Source: Magnetococcales bacterium WMHbin3
Lineage (GTDB): Bacteria > Pseudomonadota > Magnetococcia > Magnetococcales > Magnetaquicoccaceae
Assembly (NCBI GenBank): GCA_002753185.1
Contig: PDZX01000028.1
Span: 1-51,062, forward strand
DNA length: 51,062 nt
Direction of reading: 5' to 3'
The position numbers and the translations under genes were made by a program. The notes under the pieces are model-generated. The model made no database searches. It was not told the DNA's origin and saw only the letters and a list, made by a program, of their open reading frames with translations. Below are positions 5,900-24,771 of the stretch, one piece after another; within the stretch, counting starts at the first letter, position 1; each line of letters opens with the position of its first letter.

Positions 5900-8800
5900 C
5901 TAGACAAACGCCCTGGGCAGCAATTTCTCGATCTCTTGCGGCGTTCCGGCGGCCCGCAGGTAACCCCGATCCAGGTAGAGGACATAATCGGCCATTTTCA
6001 TATGACTGGGCCGATGCGTGACGATGAAGATGGTCGTTGTGCCGCGCAACCGCGCCACCGCCTCCCGGAAGAGGTTCTCGCTGGTGGCGTCCAGGTTGTT
6101 GGCCGGTTCGTCGAAGAGCATGATCGAGCTTTTCTTCAGCAGGGCGCGCGCCAGGGAGAGGCGCTGCTTGAAGCCGGCGGACAGCAATTCGTTGCGGCTG
6201 TCCTGCAGACGGGTCCTGAACCCTTCGGGCAACTGACGGATCTCCTCCAGCAGTCCGGCCTGGGCCGTGGCGGCCTCCAGTTCCGCGTCGCTGGCGTCCG
6301 GCTTGACCAGACGCAGATTCTGCGCCACCGAGCCGAAAAAGATGTCGCAGGATTGCGGCAGGTAGCCGATGGCGTGCCGCAGTTGCAGGGCATTGGTCTG
6401 GCGGATGTCGTTGTTGTCGATGAGGACACTGCCGGCCTGGGGGTCGTAGAGGCCGAGGATCATCTTGATGAGGGTCGATTTGCCCGATCCGTTGGCGCCG
6501 ATGACCGCCACCACCTGACCGGGCGCCACGCGGAAGCTGACCCCCACCAGGGCCGGTTCGCTGTCGCTGGTGTAGCGGAAGGAGACCCGCGCGAAGGCGA
6601 TCTCGCCCTTGAACTGCTTGCGGGCGATCGGGATCACGCCATATCCGCGCTCGACCGGCAGGTCCATCAACCGGTTGAGTTGCGTGACGCTGCTCGCCAC
6701 TCCGGCGATCTTGGAGATCCCCAGAAAGAAGGTCTGCAATGGCGACAGGATGCGCCAGGTCAGGAGCATCGAGGCGATCACCGCGCCGGTGCGATCGACA
6801 TCGGAGGAGAGCACGGAGCGGGCGGTTTCGCTCATCACCCCCACGCCGGCCGCCAGTGTCAGGATGCGGGAGAGCGTGGAGAAGTGGCTGGAGATCATGA
6901 TCAACCGGAAGTTGGCCAGGGTCGCCTTGCCGGAGAGTTCGCGGAACCGTGCATACCAAGTCTCCTCCGCATGGGTGTTCTGGATGGTCTGGATGCGGCC
7001 CAGGGCCTCGGTGAGGAAGGACTGCAACTGGGAGCTGTACTGCGATGCCACGCTGGAGCGCTGCCGGACCACGGGCATCAGGACGCCGCCCAGGACCACC
7101 ATGGCCAGAATCAACAACGACAGCAGGACGATCACGTTTGGGCTGATGAAGCTCAAGACGATCAGAAAGAGGATGGTGGTGGGGATATCGTAGAAGAGGA
7201 TGGCCAAAGGCCCGGTGATGACCTCCCGCACCACCTCCAGGGAGCGGATGCGGGAAATCTGGTTGCCGGCGGAGACCTGTTCGGTCAGATTGGCGGGCAT
7301 GCCCATGATCTGGTTGAGGATGGTCGCGCTCAGGGAGCACTCCAGCTTGGTGCCGATATAGGCCAGGATTTGCAGGCGTCGCACCCGCAGCGCGGCATCG
7401 ATCAGCAGGGCGAGCAGGGTGCCGGTCAGCATCACGGCGCCGGTGGAAAACGAGCCGGTCGGAATGACCCGGTCATAGACCACCATCACATAGAGCGGCA
7501 TGGCCGTGGACATCAGGTTGCCGATGATGGTGATCCCCATGATGTTCCAGACCAGGGAACGAAACCGCACCAGTTGGGTGCGCACCCAGGTCCGATCGCG
7601 GCTCGGCATGGCGGGCTGGACGGGCGCGAAGAAAAAGGCGGCGCCCCGCCCGCGCGGACGTTCCTTCCGGCGTTGGCCGGTCGTGCCATCCACCACATCC
7701 ATCTCTCCGCTGTCGCTCCTTTCCATGACCACGACGGGGCGACCGTTGCCGAACACGAACAAAAACGGCGCCAACCGCGGATCCACCTCGCCGATGGCCC
7801 CTTCCTCCATCTTGTGGGAAAAATTCAGATTGGCCATGATGTTGCAAAGGGCGGTCAGATCGAGCTTGCCCAACAGATGGGGGATGGCCTCCGCCAGTTG
7901 CCGGCCGGTGCCATGCCAGTGCAGCCCATCCAGCAAGGCGCCCAGACAGATGCTGAAGCCGTTTTTCCCCGGCAGTTGCGCCAGATAATCGCGCCAGTCC
8001 GCCGGATCGCCGCCGGATGGCAGGTCATACTCCGGAACCAGCACCGAGGCGGCTTCGCCGGATTCGGTTGGCGGCGGGGTCAATGCCGCCATGAAATCGG
8101 CCAGGGGCGCCAGGGCGCCGTCCCGAAACTGGTAACAGCGATCGGTGATGCGCAGCAGGGAAGGACGCTCGGAGATCAGCAGAATCGTGACCTGCCCCTT
8201 CAACTCCGCGAGATAGTTGCGCAACAGGATGTCGCCCGCCGAGTCGATGGCGGTATTGGCCTCGTCGAACAGGATGATTTTCGGCTGCATGGCGAGAATG
8301 CGAATCATGGCGATACGCTGAATCACGCCCGCAGGCAGGATGTCCGACACCCCTTCGCCGATCGGGGTCTGATACCCCTTGGGCATGCGCGCCACGCTGG
8401 CCTCCAGGCCCAGTTGCGCGGCGATCCGCAGGGCGATGTCCACTCTGGATTCGTCGAACATGGTCAGATTGTCCAGGATGGTCGCGTTGAACAGCACCCC
8501 CACCTGCGGGATATAGCCGATCGCCGCGTGCAGGTGTTCCGGCAGGACATTGCGGTCCATGCCGTCCACCAGCACGCTCCCCGACTGGGGCAGGATCGCG
8601 CCGGAAATGAGTTTGAGCAGCGTGGTCTTGCCATCGCCGCTGCGACCGATCAGGCCGATGCACTCTCCGGCCCCGACCTCCAGGGAGAGGCCGTCGAGCA
8701 CCGGGGTCCCCTCGCCGAACCGGCAGGTGACATCACGGATCGCCAACGCGCCGACAATGGCGGTTTTTTCCGCGTTGGCGGCGAGTTGCGGACGTTGTGG

Positions 8801-11268: not shown

Positions 11269-13059
11269 ATGCCCCGCCAGTTCGATCTCACCCCGGAGGA
11301 GGCGCTCACCCTGATCCACCACCTCACCCCCGGCCTGCGCATGGTGCGTCATCTGGGCAACGGCAGCTTCGGGCAGGTCTTCCTGCTGGAAAACGACTGG
11401 AACCGGGTGGCGGTCAAGATCGTCTTGCTGCCGGATGACCCGGACGAAAATCAGGAGTGGCATCAGTTGACCCACAACTGGGACCGGCTCAACCATGCCA
11501 GTCTGGTGCGTGTCCGCCAGTTCTTCCAGCACGAAAAATACGGCCTGATCTACATGGACTATTGGCCCATCGATCTCTACGACTGCGTCAAGCGCCTCGT
11601 CAAGGAGGGATGGCACACCCCGGAACGCAAACGCGCGCTGCTGATCAACCTGGCGCGGATGCTCCACCGTCTGTGCGCGGATGCCGGCCTGATCGTGACC
11701 GACCTGAAACTGGAAAACGTCATGGTGGCCTCACGTGGCGAGGGATCGCTCGATTTGGCCCTGATCGATCTGGGAGGGGTGTGCGAGGCCCGCCAGGCCG
11801 ACCTCTACCGGGTGATCACCACCGATTTCTACATGGCCCCGGAGATTCACGCCAAAAGCACCACCCTCATCGACGAGCCGGTATTGATCTTCTCCTTTGG
11901 CCTGATCGGCTTTTTCATCCTGGAGGGGAGATGGCCGGTGGACGAATACGACTATCTGCAACCGATCCTTGGCCCCCTTCGCCAACAGGGCGGCGCGCGC
12001 TGGGCGGAGGCCAACCGGGTCGGCATGCCGGGATGCGTGGCCATCGTCGCGCGCTGCCTGGCGGAAAACCGCCAGGAACGGTTCGCCACCCTGACGGAAC
12101 TGGTCCAGGCGCTCCAGGACGAGGCCGGGGAGGCCAACCGGCAACGCAACGCCCTCGCCAGGACGCCTCCGCCATCCAAACCCGACAAGGGACCCCGCCC
12201 CACCAGCTGGCGGGAACCCCTGACCGGCATGGAGTTCGTCCGCATTCCCGCCGGTCACTTTCCGATGGGGCAATCCCCGGAGGAGAACGCCCTGCTGACG
12301 CAAATCAACGACCCGCCCACCTTCCAGCGCTGGTATGGCCGGGAACTCCCCCGCCGCCGGGTGGCCCTGGACGCCTTCTGGCTCGCTCGCCTGCCGGTGA
12401 CCAGGGGGCAGTTCGGCCTGTTCGTCGCACAGACCCTCCATCAGACCGACATGGAGCGACGCCAGTTCGCGGTGCGCGCCAACGCCCGGCTGAAAAAGAG
12501 CGTCGGCTGGACCTGCTGGCACAAGACCCGCTTTCCCCAGGAGGAGACCCACCCGGCGGTACACATCAGCTGGTTCGACGCCAAGGCGTTCCTGGCCTGG
12601 CTCGCGGAGCGCACCGGCCTGCCCTTCGCGCTCCCCTCGGAGGCGCAATGGGAGTATGCCTGTCATGGCGGCGGCAACGCGCCCTATCATTTCGGCAAGG
12701 CCATCACCACCGACTTGGCCAATTTCGACGGCAGCGCACCGTTCGGTCCCTGCCCGGCCGGGATCTACCGCAAAGGCACAACCCCCGGCGGCATGTTCCC
12801 CGCCAATCATTACGGCCTGCACGACATGCACGGCAATGTCTGGGAGTGGTGCGAGGACCTCTACTCCGAAAATTTCTATCAGACCCCGGCGGCGGTGCGA
12901 AAAAATCCGCTCAACCAGGGCGCCATCGGCTACCGTGTCAAGCGGGGCGGTTCGTGGCGCTCGCCCCCCGCTTTGGTGCGGGCCGCCTATCGGGGGGGGA
13001 GCTATCCCGACATCGGCAAGGACGATATCGGCTTCCGGGTGGTGTTGTTGGCCGATTGA
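11269..13059 (+). CDS. Ser/Thr protein kinase fused to FGE-sulfatase-like (SUMF1) domain
   Basis: This 596-residue protein joins a eukaryotic-like kinase to a formylglycine-generating-enzyme-like fold. The ATG at 11269 has AAAGGA upstream; a TTG two codons earlier is less likely. Kinase features are the glycine-rich loop G-N-G-S-F-G-Q-V (30-37), Lys50 in VAVK, catalytic Asp145 in T-D-L-K-L-E-N, D-L-G in place of DFG (167-169) and an APE motif at 190-192. A proline/lysine-rich linker (about 295-312) leads to the FGE-like domain (about 315-595) with MHGNVWEWCEDLY and RGGSW. The two active-site cysteines of true FGE are not seen: after RGGSW the sequence reads R-S-P-P-A-L-V-R-A-A-Y-R. It is therefore probably a binding fold, not a sulfatase activator. 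No transmembrane segment is obvious. Confidence 0.88.
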   Translation: MPRQFDLTPEEALTLIHHLTPGLRMVRHLGNGSFGQVFLLENDWNRVAVKIVLLPDDPDENQEWHQLTHNWDRLNHASLVRVRQFFQHEKYGLIYMDYWPIDLYDCVKRLVKEGWHTPERKRALLINLARMLHRLCADAGLIVTDLKLENVMVASRGEGSLDLALIDLGGVCEARQADLYRVITTDFYMAPEIHAKSTTLIDEPVLIFSFGLIGFFILEGRWPVDEYDYLQPILGPLRQQGGARWAEANRVGMPGCVAIVARCLAENRQERFATLTELVQALQDEAGEANRQRNALARTPPPSKPDKGPRPTSWREPLTGMEFVRIPAGHFPMGQSPEENALLTQINDPPTFQRWYGRELPRRRVALDAFWLARLPVTRGQFGLFVAQTLHQTDMERRQFAVRANARLKKSVGWTCWHKTRFPQEETHPAVHISWFDAKAFLAWLAERTGLPFALPSEAQWEYACHGGGNAPYHFGKAITTDLANFDGSAPFGPCPAGIYRKGTTPGGMFPANHYGLHDMHGNVWEWCEDLYSENFYQTPAAVRKNPLNQGAIGYRVKRGGSWRSPPALVRAAYRGGSYPDIGKDDIGFRVVLLAD

Positions 13060-13088
13060 ACCGACTTGCGAACCATAAGAGAGGAACC

Positions 13089-14201
13089 ATGGCGACACTG
13101 CGTCCCATCGAACCCGGGGACAGCCCCGCGCTGGCGGCCTTCTGCGCCGCCTTTCCCGGCGAAACCCGACCGGAATCCTACTGGCGCGACCGGTTCCGCT
13201 TCTGGTGGGAGGAGAACCCCCACTGCCCGCCGACCTTCCCCAGGGGATCCCTGCTGGAATCCGGGAGCGGGGTCGGGGGGATGTTCGCGCTGATTCCGAC
13301 CCCGGTGCAACTCGCGGGCGAGGAACGCTTGGCCGCGAACATGTCCAACTGGCGGGTGCTGCCGGAAATGCGCAAACAAAGCTTTGCCATGTTCATGCAC
13401 ATCATGGAAATGGCAAAGCCCTACCCAACCTTCAACACCACGCCCACCACCACCGTGGAGGCGATCCTCAAGCGTGTCCCGTTTCTCCATTTCACCAGCG
13501 CCATCCGCCAGGAGAGCGTGCTGTTGAGCCGTCCGGCGGCCATGGATCCGGTGCGGGGCCTCCGGGAGGTGCTGCGGATGGCCCGCAACTGGTCCGGGGA
13601 TTGGAACGAAAAAAACTTGCTACTCTCGCTGACGCGCACCCTGGGCCGTTACGGCCAGCAGTGGGCGCAAACCGCTCATGCCATGGCGGGGGCCGGCGAG
13701 TTCCACCGCGCCACCACCATCGGGCCGGAGTTCGACCGGCTGTGGGCGCGGACGCGCAACCGCCATGTCATGACCAACGTTCGCAGCGCCCAGGCCTTGG
13801 CGTGGTATATCCAACGCAATCCCCAGCGCCAGGAGTACTTTCTGTTGGTTCACGCCAGGGGGGGCGAGGTGCGCGGCTACGGGCTGTTCAAACGCAAGCC
13901 GACCAGGCATTGGCCGGACACGGAGAGCCTGCTGGCCGTGGACATGTGGGGGGAGTACGACGAGGCGCGGGAGTGGCGTCCCCTGCTGGCTTATGCCATG
14001 ACGTTCGCCCGCAGCTTGGGCATCCAGGTGGTGCGGATCCCGCACTATCATGCCGATCTGGAAAAGGCGTTGCGGGGGTGCGGCTTTCTCCATCCCCTGC
14101 CCGTCCTTGCGACCGGCTATTATCATCCTCCCGCCGGAATGGCCGCGCCGGCGCCCGAAGCGTTCTGCGCCAGCGAAAACATGGGAGATGTGGGCCTATG
14201 A
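13089..14201 (+). CDS. GNAT-fold acyltransferase-like protein
   Basis: This 370-residue protein resembles double-domain GNAT acyltransferases. The ATG at 13089 follows AGAGAGGAACC, a good ribosome site, 29 bp after the kinase stop, so the two are probably co-transcribed. The N-terminal part begins with the typical T-L-R-P-I-E-P-G-D-S opening and includes the G-S-G-V-G-G-M-F strand. A second GNAT-like half runs from about 240 to 345 (E-Y-F-L-L-V-H-A-R-G-G-E-V-R-G-Y-G). Its 3' end overlaps the convergent carrier-protein gene by 6 bp. The neighbouring aminoacyl carrier system makes an aminoacyl or acyl transfer from the carrier an attractive hypothesis. The substrate cannot be read from sequence. 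Confidence 0.7.
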   Translation: MATLRPIEPGDSPALAAFCAAFPGETRPESYWRDRFRFWWEENPHCPPTFPRGSLLESGSGVGGMFALIPTPVQLAGEERLAANMSNWRVLPEMRKQSFAMFMHIMEMAKPYPTFNTTPTTTVEAILKRVPFLHFTSAIRQESVLLSRPAAMDPVRGLREVLRMARNWSGDWNEKNLLLSLTRTLGRYGQQWAQTAHAMAGAGEFHRATTIGPEFDRLWARTRNRHVMTNVRSAQALAWYIQRNPQRQEYFLLVHARGGEVRGYGLFKRKPTRHWPDTESLLAVDMWGEYDEAREWRPLLAYAMTFARSLGIQVVRIPHYHADLEKALRGCGFLHPLPVLATGYYHPPAGMAAPAPEAFCASENMGDVGL

Positions 14202-14444
14202 GGCGGCGAGTTTCCGCTCGACCAGCCCGATCAGGTCTTGCACCCCATCCAGATCGACCAACTCCTCCAGGGTACACTGAAACCCGAACGCCTTCTCGAC
14301 GGCCAGGATCAGGGACATGTGGCCGATGGAGTCCCAGGCGGCGAGGTCGGCCATGCTCAACGACTCGGTGACCACGATGGTGGAATCCTGAAAGGTCTCG
14401 TGAAAGATCGGTTGCAGGCGTTCCAGGATGGTTGCTGGGAACAT
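14196..14444 (-). CDS. Acyl carrier protein-like protein (aminoacyl carrier)
   Basis: This 82-residue small acidic protein has the carrier-protein fold. The sequence W-D-S-I-G-H-M-S-L supplies the serine that would take the phosphopantetheine arm, followed by the acidic helix V-E-K-A-F-G-F. The ATG at 14444 has AGGAG 7 bp upstream; a start 33 bp earlier in the same frame lacks one. It lies 16 bp after the amino acid:carrier ligase gene, as in loci where the ligase charges a dedicated carrier, so it is probably that ligase's partner. Confidence 0.88.
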   Translation of the reverse strand: MFPATILERLQPIFHETFQDSTIVVTESLSMADLAAWDSIGHMSLILAVEKAFGFQCTLEELVDLDGVQDLIGLVERKLAAS

Positions 14445-14460
14445 GAGCGCTCCTGCGGGG

Positions 14461-15660
14461 TTATGGTCCATGCCGGACCCCTGAGCGAACCGGTTCCGGC
14501 CAGAGGAGAGGATCGTTGCCGTACTGGGCCAGCAGGGCGAAGGCCAGCCGCTCCAGGCCGAACCCCATGCAACCGGAGTGGGCCGGAGCGCCGTTTTCCA
14601 GGGTGATCGCCATGTGCCGGCCAAAAAAGTCCATGTGATAGTTGCGCGACCCGACTGCCAGGGTCCCCTCCTTGAAGGGCAGACGGGCGCGGTATTCGTG
14701 TTTCAGGTCATGGATGTTCTGGAAGCCGGCCTGCATGCCGAACTCGCGGATGAAAAAGGGATCGGTGGCGTTTTCGACCCGGTAGGCCAGGCCCCACTCC
14801 TGGAGCAGCCGGCTGGCCTCCCGACCGGCGTTGACCAGGGCCTCCTTGACCCTGGGGGCGGAGCCGACAAAGATCACTTCCCACATGCTGAAATTCCACA
14901 ACCGCTCCAGGGTCTGCATGTTGATGGACTCGTAGCGGTAACAGCTCCCCTGGGCGGTGGCTGCCGTGGGGTCCTCGGTCAGACGGCGGTTGGCCAGGAA
15001 GAGATAATAATTGTGGCAGACCGTCGGCGAGAGCAGGTGACGCACCTGGGAGAACGCCTGCGGCGGCGTCTGGAGCAGCCCATCCCGGCAATGGGTTTCC
15101 GAGGCGAATCGCTCGATGAGGTCCAGATCCTCGCGCAAATGGGAGACGAAGTTCAGGGAGTGGGGGAAATTTTTGAAATATTGAATTTTTTCCAGGAATT
15201 CCGCCGGGATCATGCCGGGGAAGCGATGGATGCGTCCGCCGTGGGCCAAGCCCAGGGCGAAGAGCCGGTTTTCGAAGAAGCGGCACAAACCGGCCACCAG
15301 CGGCCCCAGGGCGTAGACGCCGTCGCCGGTTCGGACCACCTCGCCGCTGGCGAGCAGGCCGGGCATGGGGTCGGTGGCGCAAGAGAGCGGACGGTCCATG
15401 CAATCCTCGGAGACCCGGATCATGGGTTCCCTGGTGGTGGCGACCAGGATGCCGATGGCGCGCTGGACCTTGCGCCGGATCTCCCCTTCCCGCGCGGCGT
15501 CCGGGGGTTCCCCCTGGAGTTGCAGGCGCAACGCGCCGTCAGCGGCCACGGAGACCTGGGCCACCGCTTCGTCCACATAGGCCAGTTTGGCCACCACATC
15601 CCTGATCAGGAATTCCGGAATGTGGACGTCCGGTCGAATGAGAAACTCTGCCGAGGACAT
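14461..15660 (-). CDS. Amino acid:[carrier protein] ligase, class II SerRS-like
   Basis: This 399-residue enzyme probably activates an amino acid with ATP and loads it on the phosphopantetheine arm of the adjacent carrier. It is a class II aminoacyl-tRNA synthetase-like catalytic core: a motif 2 region around C-Y-R-Y-E-S with L-W-N-F-S-M-W-E-V (240-262), and motif 3 G-C-M-G-F-G-L-E-R-L (363-372). There is no tRNA-binding arm as in seryl-tRNA synthetase. Cys215, Glu261 and Cys364 are spaced like the zinc ligands of this family. The first ~95 residues are an extra N-terminal region relative to the minimal ligase. The ATG at 15660 has AAGGAG 9 bp upstream. Known family members prefer Gly or Ala; the physiological role of the family is unresolved. 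Confidence 0.85.
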   Translation of the reverse strand: MSSAEFLIRPDVHIPEFLIRDVVAKLAYVDEAVAQVSVAADGALRLQLQGEPPDAAREGEIRRKVQRAIGILVATTREPMIRVSEDCMDRPLSCATDPMPGLLASGEVVRTGDGVYALGPLVAGLCRFFENRLFALGLAHGGRIHRFPGMIPAEFLEKIQYFKNFPHSLNFVSHLREDLDLIERFASETHCRDGLLQTPPQAFSQVRHLLSPTVCHNYYLFLANRRLTEDPTAATAQGSCYRYESINMQTLERLWNFSMWEVIFVGSAPRVKEALVNAGREASRLLQEWGLAYRVENATDPFFIREFGMQAGFQNIHDLKHEYRARLPFKEGTLAVGSRNYHMDFFGRHMAITLENGAPAHSGCMGFGLERLAFALLAQYGNDPLLWPEPVRSGVRHGP

Positions 15661-15748
15661 GCTGCCTGGCTCCTTGCCGAAGAGAACGCCCGTCAGCGTG
15701 CCCTCATGACACGCTTATATTGCAGATTACAACAAATTGAACGGAATT

Positions 15749-16570
15749 TCAATCCTTCCCACGCCGACTCTTGCCAGCGAGGAACGGGGCGTTTTCGTTC
15801 AGGGCGCGGGCGGCATCGCCCATGACCGGATCGCCGCAGATGCCCCGCTCTCCGCAGCGGGGATCATGCACTCTCGGATTGGAAAACAACGGGAGCGATC
15901 CCTTGTCGTTGCCGGCGATGCGCCCCATCCAGCCCCCCACCATGATATCGCCGAACTCGCCGGGCTGCCATCGGCCATCGCAGTTGCCCACGCCAAAGCC
16001 GTTGGCGTAAGGGGAGCTGGCTACGGCGTGCCGCTTGCCCGGTTCGCAGGCATCGACCAGCGTGCCGTGATTGAGTCCCATCAGATGGCCCAACTCGTGG
16101 GCCAGGGTGTGGGCGCCGCAGGCGGGGTTCATGACCATCAGGGATTTTCGCATTGACGCCAGATCCTCCCTGCTCTTGTTGACCGCCACGGCGCGCCCGC
16201 AACCCGGCTTGCCGTTCATCGTCAGATCGGCGGTCACGGCCACGATGAAGTCGGCCCCCGCGCGCCGTGCCCCAGCGAAAAGATTGCCAAAACCGTCCCA
16301 CTCTCCGGACATCGCCGCCAGGATCTCCCGCGCATCCCTGGCGGCAAAGGGGACGAAGCGCACCTCCACGATGCGGGCGTGCAGCTCCACCTGGCTGTCA
16401 TGGTAATACCGGTTCAATTCGGCGACCCACGCATCCAGGCGTTGCCGCATGGCAGGGGTCTCCCCGACGGAATCGTGAACCAGAAACATTAAACCGAAAC
16501 CGGTTTCCGCATGAACCCATACCGGCACCAACACCAAGGCGCAAATCAACCAACGAAGCAGCCCGTGCAT
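15749..16570 (-). CDS. Secreted reprolysin-like zinc metalloprotease
   Basis: This 273-residue protein carries a Sec-type signal peptide (residues 1-21, M-H-G-L-L-R-W-L-I-C-A-L-V-L, ending V-H-A). The zinc signature H-E-L-G-H-L-M-G-L-N-H matches HExxHxxGxxH of metzincins, and a downstream D-I-M-V-G fits a Met-turn. Several cysteines (G-C-G-R, P-A-C-G-A-H, D-A-C-E-P-G, G-N-C-D-G, R-C-G-E-R-G-I-C-G-D) may form disulfides, consistent with a periplasmic or extracellular location. It is the last gene of the PPK2 operon, 6 bp after the 812-residue fusion gene. Confidence 0.85.
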   Translation of the reverse strand: MHGLLRWLICALVLVPVWVHAETGFGLMFLVHDSVGETPAMRQRLDAWVAELNRYYHDSQVELHARIVEVRFVPFAARDAREILAAMSGEWDGFGNLFAGARRAGADFIVAVTADLTMNGKPGCGRAVAVNKSREDLASMRKSLMVMNPACGAHTLAHELGHLMGLNHGTLVDACEPGKRHAVASSPYANGFGVGNCDGRWQPGEFGDIMVGGWMGRIAGNDKGSLPLFSNPRVHDPRCGERGICGDPVMGDAARALNENAPFLAGKSRRGKD

Positions 16571-16576
16571 CCCCCC

Positions 16577-19015
16577 TCACGACCCGGAACGATCGAGGAG
16601 AAAACCGGCGATCGCAAGTGCCCGTTTGCGGCGCAACGCCTCGCGCGGCCTTTGCAACAGCACCCGGATCTCCTTGGTGAACTTGACGATGCCCAGCAAC
16701 CGGAGCCAGTCGGACAGGCGTTCCCGCTCGGCGGCGGTGAAGGGGAAATGGGCGGCATAGTGGGTCAGAAAGGCGTCGAAACGGGCAAAATCGGCTTGAT
16801 CGACATACTTGTCCGCCAGCGAAAACTCGATCCCGCCATCCAGGACATCGATCATGCGCGGGCCGAAAAAGCCATTGTTGAAATCGAAGAAGCGAACCGT
16901 GCCCGCCGCGTCGATGATGACGTTCTTGGGGGTGACGTCGCCGTGACAGTGCAAGGCCGGACTGGTGGCGAACAGCGCCTGACGCCAGGCGGGATCCAGA
17001 CAGGGCGCGGCCAGGGGGGCGAGACGGTCGAATGTGGGTATCAAGTTGGCTGGCAGCGCCGGATCGCGGCGATAGATGTCGAAGTAAGGCAACCAGATCA
17101 GACAGGTACCCTCGAACAGGAACGACTGCGGCGCATCCAGCGGGGCCTGCTCCTGCACCCGGTGAATGGTGGCCAAGGCCGGACAGATGCGATCCAGGGG
17201 ATATTCCGGACGGGATTGGGGTTCGCCGTCGATGCGGTCGTAGAGCAGGGCCGGCAACCCCTCCACGGTGACGACGTCCCCGTCGATGGCGGGAATCACC
17301 CCGGCGGTGGCCACGCCCCTGGCCACCAGGGCGGTGATGAACCGGGCCTCGTAACGGGCATGCTCGGCGACCCGCGCGCTTTGATAATTGCCCGCCACCT
17401 TGAAGCATTTCAAGATGGCATCCTTGTCCGTGGCAGTCACCCGGTAAAGGAGATTTTCGGTGGCCACCCGCATGGATTGCACGCTAGCCCCAGCGAAACC
17501 GGTATACAATTCGGTGATGCGCTCCCCCATATTCGTTACCGGTTCACAAGGTTTGACCTCCCCGTCCCGGACCCGGTCATAAAAGAGCAACGCCCCGAAT
17601 TTGCGCAAAAAGGCCTCTTTTTGCGCATCCTTCCCCTGGGAGGGAAAAAAGAGATAGGCATCGACCAGGTGATGGGTGAACGGCAGGTTGGGATGCCGGG
17701 CGCTCCACTCGCCCGTGTCCCGCAACAAAGGGATCCGGGTGATGTGATAGACTGCGCACCCGCTGGAGGAGTCCGGGTTGACGAGCCGCCACTCCGAGGG
17801 GATCTCCTTTTCCCGCTCCGGATGGATCTCCACCAGGATGTCGATGTCCGAGCCGAGCTTGGCCTGGGGGCCATGGACGAACGGGGCCAGATAACAGCCC
17901 ATTTCCCGGCGCAGGGCCGACCCCATGAGGTGGATGCGCTCCACCGCCGGACAGGCCGCCACCACCGTGCGCAGGGATGCCGCGACCTGGCGCAGGATCT
18001 CCTCCTGATCGCGGGCCTCGTACACCACCTTGCCCGGTTTGATAAAAGAAAGCCCCAGCCGATCCAGCAGCGCGCTCCAGGCCTTGTACAACACCCTGGC
18101 CTCGTCCGGCCCGGCACGTCCGGCGCCATCATGGGGAAAGATCACCCGTCCGCTGTCCGGGACGTACAACCAGCCCAGGGGATCGGTCTCCACCGGCGCG
18201 GGATGGTGGTCCCGCAGGGCGTAATAGAGGTCCAGGACCTGGCACTTGATGCGATTGAGCAGATTGACATCCATGCCGGTTCCCTGGCGAGCGAGGAAAT
18301 CGGCCAGCCGTTCGGTACGGCTCAGGCCACGCCAGCGCCGGTAGTCACGAGGCGCGGTTCGGGGATCCGCACGCACCGTCACCGTCAGCCGGCTGCCCAG
18401 ATAACGGGTCACGCCAACGGCCCCCGGTTCTGCGGTGAAACCGATCAGCTTGAAGATCTCCCGCACCTTGGGGAGGTGATAGGCGGCCACGGAGAGGGCC
18501 AACACCTCATCCGGCCGGTTGCCGGCGTCCAACTGGCAATCCAGGTCGTTGGCCTCCAGCAGTTCCATGACCTCGGAGTAGATGGAGGCGCACGGGGCAT
18601 CCGGATCGACGGACTGGAGATGGCGCAACAAGCGGCGGAAATCCGGCGCGTCGATGAGGAACTTGCAGTTGCGGTAATGGAGATGATAACCGTCGCTGCA
18701 CTCCTCCAGGGAGACGCGCCGGGGGTGATACTTGACGCCGGTTTGCAGGCGGGAGTCGGTCCAGATGCGCACATCCTCCTGATTGGCGTTGGCGAGCTTG
18801 CCGTCCTGGTAGTTCTTCTCCCGGATGACGGCGAGCAATTCGGCGGACTGCTTGCCGAAGGCGGCGCAGATCTCCTCGAATTCACTCCGGCCCAGCTCGA
18901 TGCGCAGGTCGCGGTAGTGAATATGGATATTCTCCTCCATGTCGAGGAAGAAATTCCCGTGCCTAGGCTTTTCCAGGATTTCGCCCCGGAACAGGAGCTT
19001 TTTGATCACGCCCAT
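16577..19015 (-). CDS. Nucleotidyltransferase / aminoglycoside-phosphotransferase-like fusion protein
   Basis: This 812-residue protein has no name I recognise. Residues 29-60 and 109-135 repeat a similar pattern (I-H-Y-R-D-L-R-I and L-H-Y-R-N-C-K-F), suggesting an internal duplication in a novel N-terminal domain. Around 362-400 it has minimal nucleotidyltransferase motifs: G-S-A-L-R-R and D-I-D-I-L-V-E. From about 515 to 790 it looks like an APH/choline-kinase fold: the catalytic H-G-D-V-T-P-K-N at 691-698 and D-F-N-N-G at 711-715. So it could transfer a nucleotidyl group and a phosphate to the same or linked small substrate, perhaps a sugar, polyol or headgroup. It sits 29 bp after PPK2 and 6 bp before the metalloprotease. 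Both catalytic motif sets look intact. Confidence 0.7.
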   Translation of the reverse strand: MGVIKKLLFRGEILEKPRHGNFFLDMEENIHIHYRDLRIELGRSEFEEICAAFGKQSAELLAVIREKNYQDGKLANANQEDVRIWTDSRLQTGVKYHPRRVSLEECSDGYHLHYRNCKFLIDAPDFRRLLRHLQSVDPDAPCASIYSEVMELLEANDLDCQLDAGNRPDEVLALSVAAYHLPKVREIFKLIGFTAEPGAVGVTRYLGSRLTVTVRADPRTAPRDYRRWRGLSRTERLADFLARQGTGMDVNLLNRIKCQVLDLYYALRDHHPAPVETDPLGWLYVPDSGRVIFPHDGAGRAGPDEARVLYKAWSALLDRLGLSFIKPGKVVYEARDQEEILRQVAASLRTVVAACPAVERIHLMGSALRREMGCYLAPFVHGPQAKLGSDIDILVEIHPEREKEIPSEWRLVNPDSSSGCAVYHITRIPLLRDTGEWSARHPNLPFTHHLVDAYLFFPSQGKDAQKEAFLRKFGALLFYDRVRDGEVKPCEPVTNMGERITELYTGFAGASVQSMRVATENLLYRVTATDKDAILKCFKVAGNYQSARVAEHARYEARFITALVARGVATAGVIPAIDGDVVTVEGLPALLYDRIDGEPQSRPEYPLDRICPALATIHRVQEQAPLDAPQSFLFEGTCLIWLPYFDIYRRDPALPANLIPTFDRLAPLAAPCLDPAWRQALFATSPALHCHGDVTPKNVIIDAAGTVRFFDFNNGFFGPRMIDVLDGGIEFSLADKYVDQADFARFDAFLTHYAAHFPFTAAERERLSDWLRLLGIVKFTKEIRVLLQRPREALRRKRALAIAGFLLDRSGS

Positions 19016-19044
19016 TGGGTTGCGCCTCTTTGTGCGTCAGTGGA

Positions 19045-19899
19045 TCAGACCCGCCCGATCTCCTCCTCGACGGTCTGGATGATGCCCGGATCGAGAGTCA
19101 GCAGCGCGTCGTCCCTGCCGTCGTAGTCGAACTGGCGCAGGAAATGGCGGATGCTGTTGATGCGGGCCAGTTTCTTGTTGTCCGAGCGGACCACGGTCCA
19201 GGGCGAAGTGGGGAAATTGGTCAGGCGCAACATGTCGTCGCGGGCGACGGAGTAGTGATCCCAGTGATCGAGCGCCTCCTGGTCCACGGGGCTGAGCTTC
19301 CAGACCTTGAGGGGATCGGTTTCGCGGGAGTGGAACCGTTTTTCCTGGGAGGCGCGCGCCACCGAGAACCAGAACTTGGTCAGATGGATCCCCGACTCCA
19401 CCAGCATGGCTTCCAGGTGGGGGACCTGGCGATGGAACTCCTCGATCTGTTCCGGCTGGCAGAAGCCCATGACCCGTTCCACGCCGGGCCGGTTGTACCA
19501 GCTGCGGTCGAAGAAGACGATCTCGCCGCCGTGGGGGAGATGGGTGATGTAGCGCTGGAAGTACCACTGGGTCCTTTCCTGATCCGTGGGTTTCTCCAGG
19601 GCCACGACCCGGACGATACGGGGGCTGAGGAATTCGGTGAAACGCTTGATGGTTCCCCCCTTGCCGGCGGCGTCCCGCCCCTCGAAGATGGCCATCACCT
19701 TGATCTTGTTGGTCACGACCCACTGCTGGAGCTTGACCAGTTCCTGCTGCAAGGGGGTGACGATATTGAGATAGTCCTTTTCGTGCAACAGTTTGACGAT
19801 CTCCGCCTCGCGGCCCCTGACCAGATCCTCGAAGGGGAGGTGGGCATGATGGAGGGCGTTGGGTTGGTCGACGGGTGGGGTGGGAGTTTGTTCTTCCAT
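19045..19899 (-). CDS. ppk2: Polyphosphate kinase 2 (PPK2)
   Basis: This 284-residue protein uses polyphosphate to phosphorylate nucleotides, or runs the reverse reaction. Family hallmarks are the Walker A segment F-E-G-R-D-A-A-G-K-G-G near residue 73, the D-R-S-W-Y-N-R Walker B/lid block near 131, and P-F-E-D-L-V near the start. Length is normal for one-domain class I PPK2. The ATG at 19899 is preceded by AAGGAGC. It is the first gene of a three-gene minus-strand operon and is divergent from a Nudix gene. Nucleotide preference (GDP or ADP) cannot be read from this sequence. Confidence 0.95.
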   Translation of the reverse strand: MEEQTPTPPVDQPNALHHAHLPFEDLVRGREAEIVKLLHEKDYLNIVTPLQQELVKLQQWVVTNKIKVMAIFEGRDAAGKGGTIKRFTEFLSPRIVRVVALEKPTDQERTQWYFQRYITHLPHGGEIVFFDRSWYNRPGVERVMGFCQPEQIEEFHRQVPHLEAMLVESGIHLTKFWFSVARASQEKRFHSRETDPLKVWKLSPVDQEALDHWDHYSVARDDMLRLTNFPTSPWTVVRSDNKKLARINSIRHFLRQFDYDGRDDALLTLDPGIIQTVEEEIGRV

Positions 19900-19968
19900 G
19901 GAAGGTGCTCCTTGTGAAAGTATCTGATGAAGAAGAGCGACGGTTCATGCTATCCAACTTGGCGCGGG

Positions 19969-19998
19969 TTGTCGAGTTGCCCTGATTATTGCTATGCT
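19969..19998 (+). promoter_or_regulatory. Candidate sigma70 promoter for the Nudix gene
   Basis: TTGTCG (19969-19974), an 18-bp spacer and TATGCT (19993-19998) with an upstream TGC giving an extended -10. It predicts a start near 20005, about 40 bp before the GTG start codon. Confidence 0.45.
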
Positions 19999-20043
19999 GT
20001 CCGGTGAGCAAGCAACGCATGACGCCAGCCAGGAGGTGGAGCC

Positions 20044-20460
20044 GTGAGCCGATATCCGGATTACTACTACAACCAGTCCGCAGTGATTCCCGTGCGGGGG
20101 AGCGGGCAGGAGTTGCGCATTCTGCTGATCACCTCCCGTTCCGGCAAGCGCTGGGTGATTCCCAAGGGGATCATCGAACCCGATCTCTCCCCGGCGGAGT
20201 CGGCGGCCAAGGAGGCCATGGAGGAGGCGGGCATCGCCGGGGAGGTCAGGCCGGAACCCATCGGCCGTTATCAATACGACAAATGGGGTGGGACCTGCGA
20301 GGCGCGGGTCTTCGTGATGCGCGTTGACGAGGTGCGCGAACAGTGGCTGGAGAGCTTCCGCAAGCGGGGCTGGTTCACCCTGGAGGAGGCGTTGCGGCGG
20401 GTGCAGGAGGATGATCTGAAAAAGATCATGCGCCGGCTGCCGGAATTCCTGTCCGCCTGA
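20044..20460 (+). CDS. Nudix hydrolase, diphosphoinositol-polyphosphatase-like
   Basis: This 138-residue Nudix protein starts at GTG 20044, with AGGAGG 8 bp upstream deciding the start. The Nudix box is recognisable but slightly expanded: W-V-I-P-K-G-I-I-E-P-D, then E-S-A-A-K-E-A-M-E-E-A-G-I, with Lys for the usual Arg. The P-K-G opening and short size are like the diphosphoinositol polyphosphate/Ap6A hydrolase group. Some members of that group also cleave polyphosphate, and the gene is divergent from PPK2; a link is inference. The alpha/beta hydrolase gene follows after 5 bp. Confidence 0.88.
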   Translation: MSRYPDYYYNQSAVIPVRGSGQELRILLITSRSGKRWVIPKGIIEPDLSPAESAAKEAMEEAGIAGEVRPEPIGRYQYDKWGGTCEARVFVMRVDEVREQWLESFRKRGWFTLEEALRRVQEDDLKKIMRRLPEFLSA

Positions 20461-20465
20461 AGCCC

Positions 20466-21290
20466 ATGGCGCGTTTGCGACGGCCCTTGCGGTGGTTTGT
20501 ACTGGTCGTGCTGTTGGCGTATGCCGGGGTGGGGGGATATCTTTACCTGTTCCAGGAGCGGATGGTGTTCCGTTCCGGCCAGCCGGTCACGGCCACGCCT
20601 GCGGATTGGGGCATGGCGTTCGAGGAGGTCCGCTTCGCCAGCGAGGGGCTGGAGCTGAACGGCTGGTGGTTGCCCGGAGAGGCGGGCCGGCCTTTGTTGT
20701 TGTTCATGCACGGCAACACCAGCGTGCTCTCCGGGTTGCGGGGGCACATCGAGCTGTTCCGGCGTTTGGGGGTGGAGCAGTTTCTGTTCGACTACCGGGG
20801 CTATGGGCGCAGCGCGGGGAGTCCTTCCGAGGCCGGGGTGTATGCCGACGCATTGGCGGCCTGGGCGTATCTGACCAACACGCGGGGCGTGGATCCGGGG
20901 CGGATCGTGCTTTACGGCCACTCCCTGGGTGGTGGGGCGGCGACCTGGCTGGCGACGCGACATCCCCCGGCGGCCCTGATCCTGGAGGGGAGTTTCACCT
21001 CGATTCCCGACGTGGGGGCCGGGCGCTACCCCTTTCTGCCGATCCGATGGATGAGCCGCATCTTTTTCGACAATCTGGACCGCATGCCCAGGATCGGGGC
21101 GCCGTTGTTGATCCTGCACAGCCGGGACGACAAGACCATCCCCTTCCGGCACGCCGAGGTGTTGCTGTCTGCGTCCGGCAGCCGCGCAAAGACGCTTCTC
21201 CCCACGCACGGGAACCACAACACCAGCGTCAGCCAGGGCGGCAAGGAGGTCGAGGAGGGGTTGCGGCGGTTTCTTGACGACGAACAGTGA
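20466..21290 (+). CDS. Membrane-anchored alpha/beta hydrolase with altered C terminus
   Basis: This 274-residue serine hydrolase has an N-terminal membrane anchor (residues 10-29). The nucleophile elbow G-H-S-L-G-G places Ser at about 144, the oxyanion H-G-N-T lies near 78, D-D-K-T carries a likely acid residue, and a His occurs near the C-terminal T-H-G-N-H. It resembles YhfR/BEM46-type hydrolases. Its last residues, F-L-D-D-E-Q, differ from the other genomic copy of this 3' end (F-L-D-G-N-K at 23987). The restriction-modification insertion appears to have replaced its original tail while leaving nearly the whole protein intact. The substrate is unknown. Confidence 0.85.
   Translation: MARLRRPLRWFVLVVLLAYAGVGGYLYLFQERMVFRSGQPVTATPADWGMAFEEVRFASEGLELNGWWLPGEAGRPLLLFMHGNTSVLSGLRGHIELFRRLGVEQFLFDYRGYGRSAGSPSEAGVYADALAAWAYLTNTRGVDPGRIVLYGHSLGGGAATWLATRHPPAALILEGSFTSIPDVGAGRYPFLPIRWMSRIFFDNLDRMPRIGAPLLILHSRDDKTIPFRHAEVLLSASGSRAKTLLPTHGNHNTSVSQGGKEVEEGLRRFLDDEQ
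20878..21277 (+). repeat. Direct repeat copy 1 (3' part of hydrolase gene)
   Basis: This is the left copy of an almost 400-bp direct repeat. It shares all but about eight substitutions and one small indel with 23574-23974, roughly 97-98 percent identity by eye. It ends within the hydrolase stop region where the restriction endonuclease frame begins. Confidence 0.93.
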
Positions 21291-21978
21291 CATTCCAACC
21301 TTCGTCAAGACCATCGAAGACAAAAAAAGCCTGCCACACCGCATGGCTGCCCGCGAAGCAGATGCACAATTGGTCAAGATTGCCGCTATCATTGGTCGTA
21401 TGACCGACCCTGATATTTTCGTCTGGCTTGACCGTTCTGAACCGCCCAATACTGCCGAACTGCATCGTGCAGCGACGATTATCGCCGATCGTCTGTGCGG
21501 AGCCGTGGCAAACCCAATCATTCGTAACGCTCAAGAAAAACGTCAACTGGCCGCAATCAAGTCATGGCTTGAAGAGCAGGGTTACAGGCAGCTAATCTCC
21601 GGCGATGGAATCAAATTCGATACAATGCCAATCGGCACATTCAGCTTCCGTATGAATGTTCCGGTCACGCTGGAAAACGGAACACGCTCCGTCAACATTC
21701 CGGTTGATGCCGTCATCATGCCAAAGACAGCCACACTTGGCGACCTTCCTGTATTTTTCGAGGCCAAATCCGCCGGTGACTTCACCAACGTCAACAAACG
21801 CCGCAAGGAAGAAGCTGCCAAAATGGGGCAACTACGCAGCACTTACGGGGAGGAAGTTCGCTTTAATCTGTTCCTGTGCGGGTATTTCGATAGCGGCTAT
21901 CTCGGCTATGAAGCCGCCGAGGGAATCGACTGGGTTTGGGAGCACCGGATCAACGATTTGTCCCATTTTGGAATCTGA
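21274..21978 (+). CDS. XamI-like type II restriction endonuclease
   Basis: This 234-residue protein resembles XamI-family endonucleases, which cleave GTCGAC; specificity here is inferred, not seen. A PD-(D/E)XK-like core is visible: Asp145 in N-I-P-V-D-A-V-I-M-P and E-A-K at 163-165. The C-terminal block F-L-C-G-Y-F-D-S-G-Y-L and W-E-H-R-I-N-D-L is strongly family-like. The only start that covers the whole frame is TTG at 21274, which overlaps the hydrolase stop by 17 bp. The next Met is at 21343. The N terminus may be truncated or newly built at the insertion junction. GC content is visibly lower than the flanking genes. The methyltransferase follows after 2 bp. Confidence 0.75.
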   Translation: MTTNSDIPTFVKTIEDKKSLPHRMAAREADAQLVKIAAIIGRMTDPDIFVWLDRSEPPNTAELHRAATIIADRLCGAVANPIIRNAQEKRQLAAIKSWLEEQGYRQLISGDGIKFDTMPIGTFSFRMNVPVTLENGTRSVNIPVDAVIMPKTATLGDLPVFFEAKSAGDFTNVNKRRKEEAAKMGQLRSTYGEEVRFNLFLCGYFDSGYLGYEAAEGIDWVWEHRINDLSHFGI

Positions 21979-23573
21979 CCATGATGCCGAATTTTCACAA
22001 GCTCGAACCACAGCGTGTCGCTCTACAGGCCGATCTTGATCAAAAGAAGAGTCTGACCGAAAGAAACAAACTGGGGCAATTCTCGACTCCCTTCCCGCTT
22101 GCTCAAGAAATATTGCGCCATGCGGATCGCTTATTGCCTGCAGGCCCCGTGCGGTTCCTTGATCCGGCCTTTGGCACCGGAGCATTCTATTCCGCACTGC
22201 GCAACGTCTATCCGAACAACCGCATCATCGAAGCTGTCGGCTTCGAGATCGATACCCATTATGGATACCCAGCCTGCGCCTTATGGAACGAAACCGGGCT
22301 AAACCTGCGCATGACTGATTTCACCAGGCAAACCCCAGAACCGCGTTTCAACCTTCTGATCTGCAACCCGCCTTATGTACGACATCACCATCTGACCACC
22401 GATGACAAAGATCGATTGCAACGCCTCACCGCAGAACGCTGCAATATCCGCATTAATGGTCTTGCCGGCCTTTATTGCCACTTCATTGGCCTGTCTCATG
22501 CTTGGCTCGCCGAGGACGCCATAGCTGGCTGGCTCATTCCGAGCGAATTCATGGATGTGAATTATGGTGTTGCAATCAAGCATTATCTCTTGGAAAAGGT
22601 CACACTCCTGCACATTCATCGCTTCGATCCGAAAGATGTGCAGTTTTCTGATGCACTAGTATCATCAGCTATCGTCTGGTTCCGCAACGCTCCACCCCCA
22701 CACAACCATACAGTCGACTTCAGCTTCGGCGGCACATTATCAATGCCTGCTCAAATGCGTTCGATACCGGTTCAGGCCCTCGCCCAAGAGCCAAAATGGA
22801 CTCGCTTTCCCGCTGCCGGTATCCGTCTGCATCCATCGGGGCCGATCCTGTCCGATTTCTTCCGCATCAAGCGCGGTATCGCCACTGGAAACAACAGCTT
22901 CTTCATCTTGTCCGATGACGAAGTCGAATCACGAAATCTGCCACGAGATGCTTTCCGACCGATCCTGCCCAGCCCACGCCATGTCGATGCCGACGAAGTT
23001 GCAGCCGACGACGTTGGCAACCCCCTGCTCGACCGAAGACTATTTTTGCTGGATTCGCGCATGAGTGAGGCGGAAATCGCCCGCCATCAGCCGCCTTTGT
23101 TGCGATACCTGGAAGAAGGTAAGCGCCAGGGAGTGCCAGAAACCTATCTATGCCGACACCGTTCCCCCTGGTATGCACAGGAAGACCGACCGGCAGCGCC
23201 TATCGTTTGCACTTATCTCGGTCGTAGCAACAGTAAATGCGGACGGCCTTTTCGCTTTATCCTGAATCATTCAAGGGCAACCATAACAAATGTCTATCTC
23301 GCCATGTATCCGACCCCGACCCTGTCTGCTGCCATGTGCAAAGACAGGCATCTGATCCGGCGGATATGGGCAGCACTAAACCGAATCACCCCGGCGCAGC
23401 TTCTTGGCGAAGGCCGCGTCTATGGCGGCGGTCTGCATAAGCTGGAACCAAGAGAACTGGCGAACGTGCCTGGCGAGTCGATTGCCGCGCTCTTGCCCGC
23501 CCAATACCGACCGATGCGACAAGAAAGATTGCCGATTTAGCAGCCACGAGACAAAGCAGGAGCCGATCCCATG
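21275..23573 (+). mobile_element. Restriction-modification insertion flanked by long direct repeats
   Basis: About 2.3 kb of lower-GC sequence holding an endonuclease and a methyltransferase gene interrupts the hydrolase gene near its 3' end. Copies of about 400 bp of that gene lie on each side (20878-21277 and 23574-23974). No transposase, integrase or terminal inverted repeat is visible, so this fits insertion with long target duplication as reported for R-M genes. Recombination between the repeats would delete the element and restore the gene. Confidence 0.85.
21981..23540 (+). CDS. N6-adenine DNA methyltransferase (R-M partner)
   Basis: This 519-residue gamma-class type II methyltransferase has S-adenosylmethionine motif I D-P-A-F-G-T-G-A-F (61-69), catalytic N-P-P-Y (129-132) and a preceding Q-F-S-T-P (34-38), as in TaqI/Eco57I-type enzymes. 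The C-terminal part is a target-recognition region with several conserved-looking C-x-x-H-R and N-R-I-T-P segments. I start it at ATG 21981, 2 bp after the endonuclease stop; translation is probably coupled. An upstream in-frame TTG would overlap the endonuclease. Base composition differs from neighbours, indicating recent gain. It should protect the host from the adjacent XamI-like enzyme. Confidence 0.9.
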   Translation: MMPNFHKLEPQRVALQADLDQKKSLTERNKLGQFSTPFPLAQEILRHADRLLPAGPVRFLDPAFGTGAFYSALRNVYPNNRIIEAVGFEIDTHYGYPACALWNETGLNLRMTDFTRQTPEPRFNLLICNPPYVRHHHLTTDDKDRLQRLTAERCNIRINGLAGLYCHFIGLSHAWLAEDAIAGWLIPSEFMDVNYGVAIKHYLLEKVTLLHIHRFDPKDVQFSDALVSSAIVWFRNAPPPHNHTVDFSFGGTLSMPAQMRSIPVQALAQEPKWTRFPAAGIRLHPSGPILSDFFRIKRGIATGNNSFFILSDDEVESRNLPRDAFRPILPSPRHVDADEVAADDVGNPLLDRRLFLLDSRMSEAEIARHQPPLLRYLEEGKRQGVPETYLCRHRSPWYAQEDRPAAPIVCTYLGRSNSKCGRPFRFILNHSRATITNVYLAMYPTPTLSAAMCKDRHLIRRIWAALNRITPAQLLGEGRVYGGGLHKLEPRELANVPGESIAALLPAQYRPMRQERLPI

Positions 23574-23987
23574 ACACGCGGGGCGTGGATCCGGGGCGGA
23601 TCGTGCTTTACGGCCACTCCCTGGGTGGTGGGGCGGCGACTTGGCTGGCGACGCGACATCCTCCGGCGGCCCTGATCCTGGAGGGGAGTTTCACCTCGAT
23701 TCCCGACGTGGGGGCCGGGCGCTACCCCTTTTAAGCCGATCCGGTGGATGAGCCGCATCTTTTTCGACAATCTGGACCGCATGCCCAGGATCGGGGCGCC
23801 GTTGTTGATCCTGCACAGCCGGGACGACAAGACCATCCCCTTCCGGCACGCCGAGGTGTTGCTGGCTGCGTCCGGCAGCCGCGCAAAGACGCTTCTCCCC
23901 ACGCACGGGAGCCACAACATCAGCGTCAGCCAGGGCGGCAGGGATGTCGAGGAGGGGTTGCGGCGGTTTCTCGATGGTAACAAATAA
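23574..23987 (+). pseudogene. Duplicated 3' fragment of alpha/beta hydrolase gene (copy 2)
   Basis: This is the right copy of the target duplication. It covers the last third of the hydrolase and ends with its own stop in F-L-D-G-N-K, probably the original 3' end of the gene. Where copy 1 reads ttt-ctg-ccg, this copy reads ttt-taa, producing an in-frame stop and a +1 shift near 23733. A short open frame from 23748 retains the last 79 codons but lacks the nucleophile elbow. Non-functional. Confidence 0.9.
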
Positions 23988-24089
23988 AGATCATTTTCGA
24001 AAAGACGGCATCATCCTTGTGGACGGGATCGGCCAAAATCGGCTAATATACTCGGAAATCGCGTTTTGCCTTCCAGAAGGGGATCTCCC

Positions 24090-24749
24090 ATGACCGGTCT
24101 TGCATTCGATACCTTGCGGTACACCAAACGCTTGCGGGAGGTTGGCGTTCCCGAACCCCAGGCGGAAGTTCAGGCGGAACTCCTGGCGGAAGCCTTGGCG
24201 GATCGACTCGCGACCAAGGAGGACTTGGCCAAGGTAGACGCGAATCTGAAGCTGGCTATCAAGGAACTGGACGTAAAACTGACACAAGATATTAAAAATC
24301 TGGATGTAAAACTTACGAAAGATATCAAAGATCTGGAAGCAAAGCTTACGAAAGATATAAAGGATCTGGAAGCAAAGCTTACGAAAGAGATCAAAGATGT
24401 AGAAGCAAAACTTACAAAAGATATCAAAGATGTAGAAGTAAAATTGACGCGGGAGATGAAAGAACTGGAAGTTAAACTGACGCGGGAGATGAAAGAACTG
24501 GAAGTTAAACTGACGCAGGAGATCAAGGCATTGGACACCAAGATCGAAACCACCAAGGCCGACACCATCAAATGGACAGCGGGCATGTTCGTGGCCCAGA
24601 CCGCATTGATCATCGGCGCCATGTTCGGGGTGATGCGGATCAACCAACCGCCGCCGCAAGCCCCATTCGTTCAGGAGATGCGCATGCCCGCCCCGGCCCA
24701 ACCGGCACCACCACCCCACAGCCAGGGAGCGCCTTCCCAAGCCAGGTGA
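24090..24749 (+). CDS. Coiled-coil protein with 11-residue repeats and C-terminal membrane segment
   Basis: This 219-residue protein resembles DUF1640/CCDC90-like proteins: an N-terminal head (F-D-T-L-R-Y-T-K-R-L, A-L-A-D-R-L-A-T-K-E-D-L), a long coiled coil and one transmembrane segment near residues 168-190, then a Pro-rich tail. The ATG at 24090 has AAGGGG upstream. The coiled coil is built from eight to nine consecutive 11-residue units such as I-K-D-L-E-A-K-L-T-K-D. Their codons are AT-rich and very similar, so the array probably expanded by slippage. The role is unknown; relatives are small membrane coiled-coil proteins common near mobile or phage-like genes. Confidence 0.82.
   Translation: MTGLAFDTLRYTKRLREVGVPEPQAEVQAELLAEALADRLATKEDLAKVDANLKLAIKELDVKLTQDIKNLDVKLTKDIKDLEAKLTKDIKDLEAKLTKEIKDVEAKLTKDIKDVEVKLTREMKELEVKLTREMKELEVKLTQEIKALDTKIETTKADTIKWTAGMFVAQTALIIGAMFGVMRINQPPPQAPFVQEMRMPAPAQPAPPPHSQGAPSQAR
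24258..24554 (+). repeat. In-frame 33-bp tandem repeats (hendecad coiled coil)
   Basis: About nine 33-bp units run without spacers; the neighbours near 24290-24400 and 24440-24510 are nearly identical to each other. Each encodes one 11-residue unit, so unit gain or loss would change the coiled-coil length without a frameshift. This is not a CRISPR array: units are contiguous and translated. Confidence 0.9.
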
Positions 24750-24771
24750 GGATCCCTCCGCAGGCGTGGGT

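Follow-up and report, generated by a model that had tools for sequence, protein, structure and literature searches.

The window, a stretch of 51,062 nucleotides (positions 1 to 51,062 of contig PDZX01000028.1 in the Magnetococcales bacterium WMHbin3 assembly GCA_002753185.1), contains a restriction-modification (R-M) gene pair of the XamI family lying at the 3′ end of an alpha/beta-hydrolase gene. The 3′ part of the hydrolase gene is present as two direct copies, which start 2696-2697 bp apart, and the 2296 bp between them hold an endonuclease gene (R) followed by an Eco57I-type methyltransferase gene (M). The features of the site are listed below with their supporting evidence; G001 is a genome of the same genus.

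20466-21290, + strand: alpha/beta-hydrolase gene, 274 amino acids, complete save that the tail DEQ replaces GNK (open reading frame, ORF; Pfam Hydrolase_4, 5.4e-15; the G001 orthologue ends LDGNK)
20878-21277, + strand: left direct-repeat copy, hydrolase 3′ part (390 of 402 aligned columns identical to the right copy)
21278-21294: left junction of 17 bp, either filler or diverged R codons (the insert's DNA similarity to the XamI loci compared begins at insert base 18)
21295-21978, + strand: XamI-family endonuclease gene, 5′-truncated, about residues 94-320 of 320, with possible in-frame starts at TTG 21274 and ATG 21343 (PF09572, 5.5e-103, profile positions 42-256)
21981-23540, + strand: Eco57I-type adenine methyltransferase gene, 519 amino acids, which looks intact (PF07669, 3.1e-10; PADLOC MTase_II, 1.7e-140; 0 of 147 near-invariant positions changed)
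23541-23573: 33-bp tail from the methyltransferase stop codon to the right copy (sequence)
23574-23974, + strand: right direct-repeat copy, a pseudogene fragment with a frameshift and a TAA at 23732-23734 (7 derived substitutions against 2 in the left copy, 2 ambiguous)
23975-23987, + strand: original hydrolase 3′ end with its stop, continuous with the right copy (G001 has the same end)
24090-24749, + strand: CCDC90-like coiled-coil gene, the downstream anchor common to the empty site (PF07798, 3.8e-17; 23576-24759 matches G001 at 80%)

A preliminary description of this DNA had placed two genes between near-identical copies of a hydrolase 3′ end, each of about 400 bp, and the alignment of the copies confirms this arrangement. 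It had also taken the left copy for part of a gene with a new tail and the right copy for the original end with a stop. The left copy does lie inside the hydrolase ORF, which has the C-terminal tail RRFLDDEQ, and the right copy, longer by one base, ends in RRFLDGNK and a stop codon, with a one-base shift and the TAA interrupting it in the hydrolase frame. This frameshift is among the 12 alignment columns at which the copies differ. A repeat of this length is not a chance occurrence, as 260 random 2.5-kb pseudo-elements with 1200-bp flanks gave a single repeat, of 41 bp at 80% identity. The insert is foreign DNA, with a G+C content of 54% compared with 62% for the window. As the same description stated, no transposase was seen between the copies, nor was an integrase; the + strand there is filled by R and M, and the smaller overlapping ORFs of at least 70 amino acids in other frames were not scanned. 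A 79-residue ORF of the right copy gave no Pfam family match.

In order to compare this site with its relatives, the hydrolase was searched for in 61 genomes, the window's own and 60 others. It was matched in 53 of the 61, many of the matches being distant paralogues, and the remaining 8 gave no match. A relative with one intact hydrolase ending in F-L-D-G-N-K had been predicted, and G001 has exactly this: a single intact gene with that end, then the same coiled-coil gene, with no insert. Two stretches of the window are collinear with G001, 13052-21277 (8.2 kb upstream, 89% identity) and 23576-24759 (1.2 kb downstream, 80%). In the window, an R-M pair has been inserted at this site, the end of the target gene has been duplicated and the right copy has decayed. 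With G001 as the outgroup over 400 columns, the right copy carries 7 derived substitutions plus a one-base insertion and the left copy 2, with 2 ambiguous, an excess that is only suggestive given a two-sided p of 0.18. The two copies differ from each other at 11 of 400 columns and the left copy differs from G001 at 45 of 400, and so the duplication appears to be younger than the split from G001, yet not brand new.

As the genome is a draft of 157 contigs, an assembly artefact or binning error could in principle have supplied a second hydrolase copy or an insert that is not in the cell. However, the copies differ at the 12 columns noted above, both flanks are collinear with G001, R and M stand in their usual order and a parallel case exists in the related genome G009 described below, which together make such an error the least credible of the explanations considered. 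A second explanation places two separate events at the site, a tandem duplication of the target followed later by capture of the R-M genes between the copies. The end product would be the same, and PMC3784515 reports tandem duplications in pneumococcus that are triggered by interchromatid integration during transformation, but these measure ~100-900 kb. No second copy of this hydrolase gene beside the first was found in any of the 60 relatives, and hence neither was the arrangement that the preliminary description had named as evidence against insertion, both copies without R-M genes; one genome of the same phylum (G048) has two adjacent hydrolase genes, which are distant paralogues at 37% and 34% identity. 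In addition, flanking repeats recur around other XamI-family pairs and hardly around random segments, and we regard this order of events as highly unlikely.

The endonuclease gene is not complete. Relatives of R were taken as the best 80 of 348 homologues from one scan of genome contigs. They span several phyla and are 63-76% identical to the R of the window, which covers only positions 42-256 of the Pfam RE_XamI profile and has lost ~93 N-terminal residues of ~320. In 70 of the 80 homologues there is a start codon no more than 3 codons from the point that yields the family length of ~320 residues, and 62 of these 70 are 319-321 residues long. The first 93 residues of one full-length homologue matched at all 80 homologue loci (in a broken frame at L077, L078 and L096, and cut by the contig end at L069) and had no match at the R gene of the window, where similarity starts at about residue 94, just past the left hydrolase copy. 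A split gene or misjoin that had left the missing 5′ end elsewhere in the genome was considered and rejected, since a full-length homologue searched against the window's own genome, a 93%-complete draft, found residues 95-320 alone.

Among 68 aligned full-length homologues, 24 invariant columns fall in the missing part. The retained part shows no substitution at 86 near-invariant positions, and the 34 deviations among 120 such positions are all missing N-terminal columns. From its sequence, the endonuclease is probably inactive. In the AlphaFold structure predicted for a full-length homologue (mean predicted local distance difference test score, pLDDT, 82; predicted template modelling score, pTM, 0.61), the missing part falls within an N-terminal region of helices, and the strand order and an E-A-K motif of the model allow the remaining part to be read as the nuclease core. 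The solved fold nearest to the model is BsoBI (E 0.047), too weak a match for assigning a role, and the sole sequence match in the PDB had an E value of 0.5. Our reading of the truncation is that the left junction suffered a deletion after the insertion, and fairly recently; alternatively, the R fragment may already have been truncated on arrival. Because R is truncated at this junction, the left boundary may represent the end of a later deletion and not the original point of insertion, and ~400 bp may understate the original length of the duplication. Some other XamI-family endonuclease genes also look broken, as the N-terminal part of R at L077, L078 and L096 matches in a different reading frame from the remainder.

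The methyltransferase gene looks intact, and its product is mostly 50-66% identical to its homologues. What is left of the system would be an orphan methyltransferase beside a probably inactive endonuclease remnant. The specificity of XamI is GTCGAC, and this site was counted in search of an avoidance that would be a trace of past restriction. The counts gave no clear link to the presence of R-M genes: across 11 genomes of the genus, with or without a XamI-family pair, the site occurs only 7-140 times per genome (80 in G000, 97 in G001, 27 in G009 and 7 in G003), and a reversed control pattern occurs 71-367 times.

A second insertion was found in the same genus. One of the surveyed homologue loci, L101 (JADGBU010000066.1, Magnetococcales bacterium isolate nW5bin3), is identical to contig C180 of G009 over 2687 compared bases, and the two were therefore taken as one genome. 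Here a XamI-family pair lies between a UDP-N-acetylglucosamine (UDP-GlcNAc) 2-epimerase gene and neuB, both assigned through Pfam. Its R is 319 amino acids long and 68% identical to that of the window, and its M ORF of 510 amino acids is at the low end of the family range of 497-565, with the match to the window's M continuing past its stop. The pair is flanked by a direct repeat of 199 bp with zero mismatches. There is an additional 27-bp match (26/27 identical), which suggests that the left copy formerly included more of neuB, ~63 bp having since been lost between short repeats. Loci of neuB were found in 25 of 26 genomes, and six relatives besides G009 were compared. When the flanks of the G009 insertion were joined with one repeat copy kept, they aligned unbroken to G010, G005 and G008 at 73-76%, so that these three genomes carry the empty epimerase/neuB site; G003, G000 and G001 aligned only in part. 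The G009 insertion looks like a fresh event of the same kind as that in the window.

In order to determine how often such repeats surround this family, the homologue loci were surveyed for the XamI family only, counting direct repeats that spanned the pair within 1200-bp flanks, were 40 bp or longer and had at least 80% identity. Two of the 80 loci were dropped for want of an M match and 26 for having less than 1200 bp on one side, leaving 52 unselected loci, of which 8 were repeat-flanked (L038, L041, L064, L075, L076, L088, L091 and L101). The strict count is 5/49, as a single event accounts for L075, L076 and L091 and as L041, with a tRNA-Val gene on either side, was set aside. Pseudo-elements of 2300 bp placed within the upstream flanks of these loci gave 0/49, and the 2.5-kb pseudo-elements mentioned above, drawn from 20 regions of related genomes, gave 1/260, a control weakened by its taxa differing from those of most loci (Fisher tests, p 0.0004 for 5/49 against 1/260 and p 0.03 against 0/49). 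Mismatched upstream and downstream flanks matched in 3 of 1000 pairs sampled from 2652, all three within L075, L076 and L091. Flanking repeats are thus enriched around XamI-family pairs over the controls used. A looser search of whole flanks (E up to 1e-3) found repeats in 13 of 75 loci, the 8 already counted together with L067 (490 bp, 88%), L035, L054, L065 and L074, which had been excluded because their repeats lay beyond the 1200-bp flanks or the thresholds or because the loci were too short.

The main rival to a transposase-free insertion is a single crossover of the Campbell type, in which a circle carrying the R-M genes and a fragment of a related strain's hydrolase gene recombines with the chromosomal gene. 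The product is topologically identical, the 3% difference between the copies could equal the divergence of such a donor, and XamI-family pairs do occur on small plasmids: 12 plasmid records match the family, and the 6 examined include a Psychrobacter plasmid of 6.9 kb. Among 50,697 phage records there was no match to the family, and 14 IMG/VR contigs carry it. However, a tblastn search (E up to 1e-5) found no hydrolase-like gene in the flanks of the 80 R homologue loci, and more of the differences between the copies fall in the right one, which is non-functional (7 compared with 2, and the frameshift as well, with the p of 0.18 given above). In G009, because the 199-bp repeats are perfect and lie at an unrelated target, no donor hydrolase homology is needed. 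We consider such a crossover unlikely at the window site, though it deserves more weight than either of the explanations set aside earlier.

The inserted pairs have a common anatomy. The pair is co-directional with the readable target genes and mostly stands at the target's 3′ end, and each target keeps one full-length or nearly full-length copy, as far as ORFs show, with the last codons changed in the window and at L064. The targets are the hydrolase in the window, the epimerase end and neuB start in G009, a HAD-family gene at L075, L076 and L091, a flavodoxin-like gene at L064 (read from its frames, with no family search) and, at L088 in Oleispirillum naphthae, where R is intact, an AbrB-family gene whose end overlaps the repeat. 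L067, which is outside the 52-locus count, differs in that its target, a UbiD gene, stands in full on the right, with an incomplete 5′ copy to the left. The inserts hold little besides R and M, with only 7 bp before the R start at L064. Selection for harmless insertions could by itself give rise to this anatomy. Two observations concern the neighbourhood of these pairs. At L064 an EcoRI-type methyltransferase gene (7486-8580) adjoins the repeat-flanked pair, so that two R-M methyltransferase genes stand side by side. The HAD gene, R and M form a block with ~93% DNA identity across L075, L076 and L091, records labelled Gemmatimonadetes and Latescibacteria, and at L076 and L091 the shared stretch continues through the HAD 3′ fragment, which suggests that this composite moves as a block.

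Integrative elements that enter at tRNA-type attachment (att) sites restore the 3′ end of the gene. The insertions described here resemble them in having a duplicated gene 3′ end beside the insert and a target gene kept complete; they differ in that no integrase was seen at the window site and that repeat length varies between events, from 48 to about 400 bp. The pair at L041 (4249-7578) lies between two tRNA-Val genes, which run the opposite way, and possibly arrived by a different, att-like route.

Taken together, these results lead us to favour a transposase-free insertion of a XamI-family pair at the hydrolase 3′ end with duplication of at least ~400 bp, followed by truncation of R and decay of the right copy, a history to which we give a probability of roughly three in four. 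A horizontally acquired pair would have inserted co-directionally, with no visible transposase, close to the 3′ terminus of a hydrolase gene present in single copy, duplicating at least ~400 bp of its end as copies presumably identical at the time. With the gene end duplicated, the left copy would have remained a complete gene, and the right copy, severed from its start, would have decayed. A later deletion at the left junction would then have removed the 5′ third of R, and may have trimmed the left copy as well. The mechanism of insertion itself is unproven; the footprint alone does not identify it. Most likely, the ends of a captured linear R-M fragment would have been joined to sister copies of the target at positions ~400 bp from each other, and fill-in of a long staggered break could have served as an alternative for this joining step. 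One-sided homology combined with illegitimate joining at the other end appears in PMC5361080 as homology-facilitated illegitimate recombination. Excision of the pair by recombination between the repeats would be plausible.

Several observations weigh against this history. End-joining and the integration of a circle with a hydrolase fragment on it would leave the same footprint, the assembly of the site is known from draft contigs alone, and the original left junction is lost, as the left boundary now falls within R. The G001 match ends after 24759, though the G001 contig extends 1.6 kb more. In the survey, 44 of the 52 loci had no flanking repeat. A second set, made up of 6 loci from plasmids, 14 from viral contigs and 3 from Magnetococcales, for which flanks from 200 bp were accepted and one member of which (G023) appears to be the same as L084 of the first set, gave repeats at 0 of 19 testable loci, including 0 of 5 testable plasmid loci. 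A broader proposal is offered tentatively, at clearly less than even odds: that XamI pairs may be a minimal transposase-free moving unit, settling co-directionally at host-gene ends, mostly 3′, with long duplications of variable length that leave the target complete and the pair behind a host promoter, and that decay of the endonuclease would then yield an orphan methyltransferase, with G009 at a fresh stage and the window at a decayed one.

Insertion of R-M genes with long target duplication was reportedly described by Nobusato et al. in 2000, from Helicobacter pylori 26695 and J99, and by Furuta et al. in 2010, and the way in which R-M genes travel in the absence of transposases has been a question since the first of these. 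Long and variable target duplications at R-M genes are on record in PMC3031569, PMC1643837, PMC4978471 and PMC3874152, the last of which quotes lengths in the order of 100 bp. In neither the XamI family nor the Magnetococcales is this mode reported by any paper among the literature matches listed. The window shares with the mode, as those texts present it, R-M genes set within long direct repeats of host sequence and a related genome with a single copy and no insert; different here are the bacterial order, the R-M family, the ~400-bp repeat, the endonuclease truncated at one junction, and the presence in a single genus of two separate events, whose repeats are diverged in one case and perfect in the other. 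In this respect the preliminary description, which had called the site a long-duplication insertion of a two-gene system, was right about the flanking copies of host DNA, the empty site (now seen in G001) and the close match to the reported mode; the system is no longer an intact one, as the endonuclease gene has lost its 5′ part at the left junction. The order of genes is that of the XamI-family type II systems (PF09572 with an Eco57I-type methyltransferase), endonuclease then methyltransferase and co-directional, and the endonuclease of the window differs from them in lacking its N-terminal ~93 residues. The insertion-sequence-linked movement of the PaeR7I system, described in PMC3031569, is similar in that the system has no transposase of its own and its product is flanked by direct repeats; its repeats are, however, insertion sequences with short target duplications, and none were seen at the hydrolase site.

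The insertion mode is known already, and the XamI family and the Magnetococcales case add to it; the window is worth more within a series than alone. The genus provides two bracketed insertions with known empty sites, one of them with perfect repeats, and one R-M family shows repeat enrichment over the controls used, which makes junctions comparable from one independent event to another. In the window, one path can also be seen along which a mobile R-M pair might be reduced to an orphan methyltransferase. Finally, the downstream CCDC90-like gene contains at 24237-24533 a 33-bp tandem array encoding 11-residue coiled-coil repeats, with more units than in its G001 orthologue.

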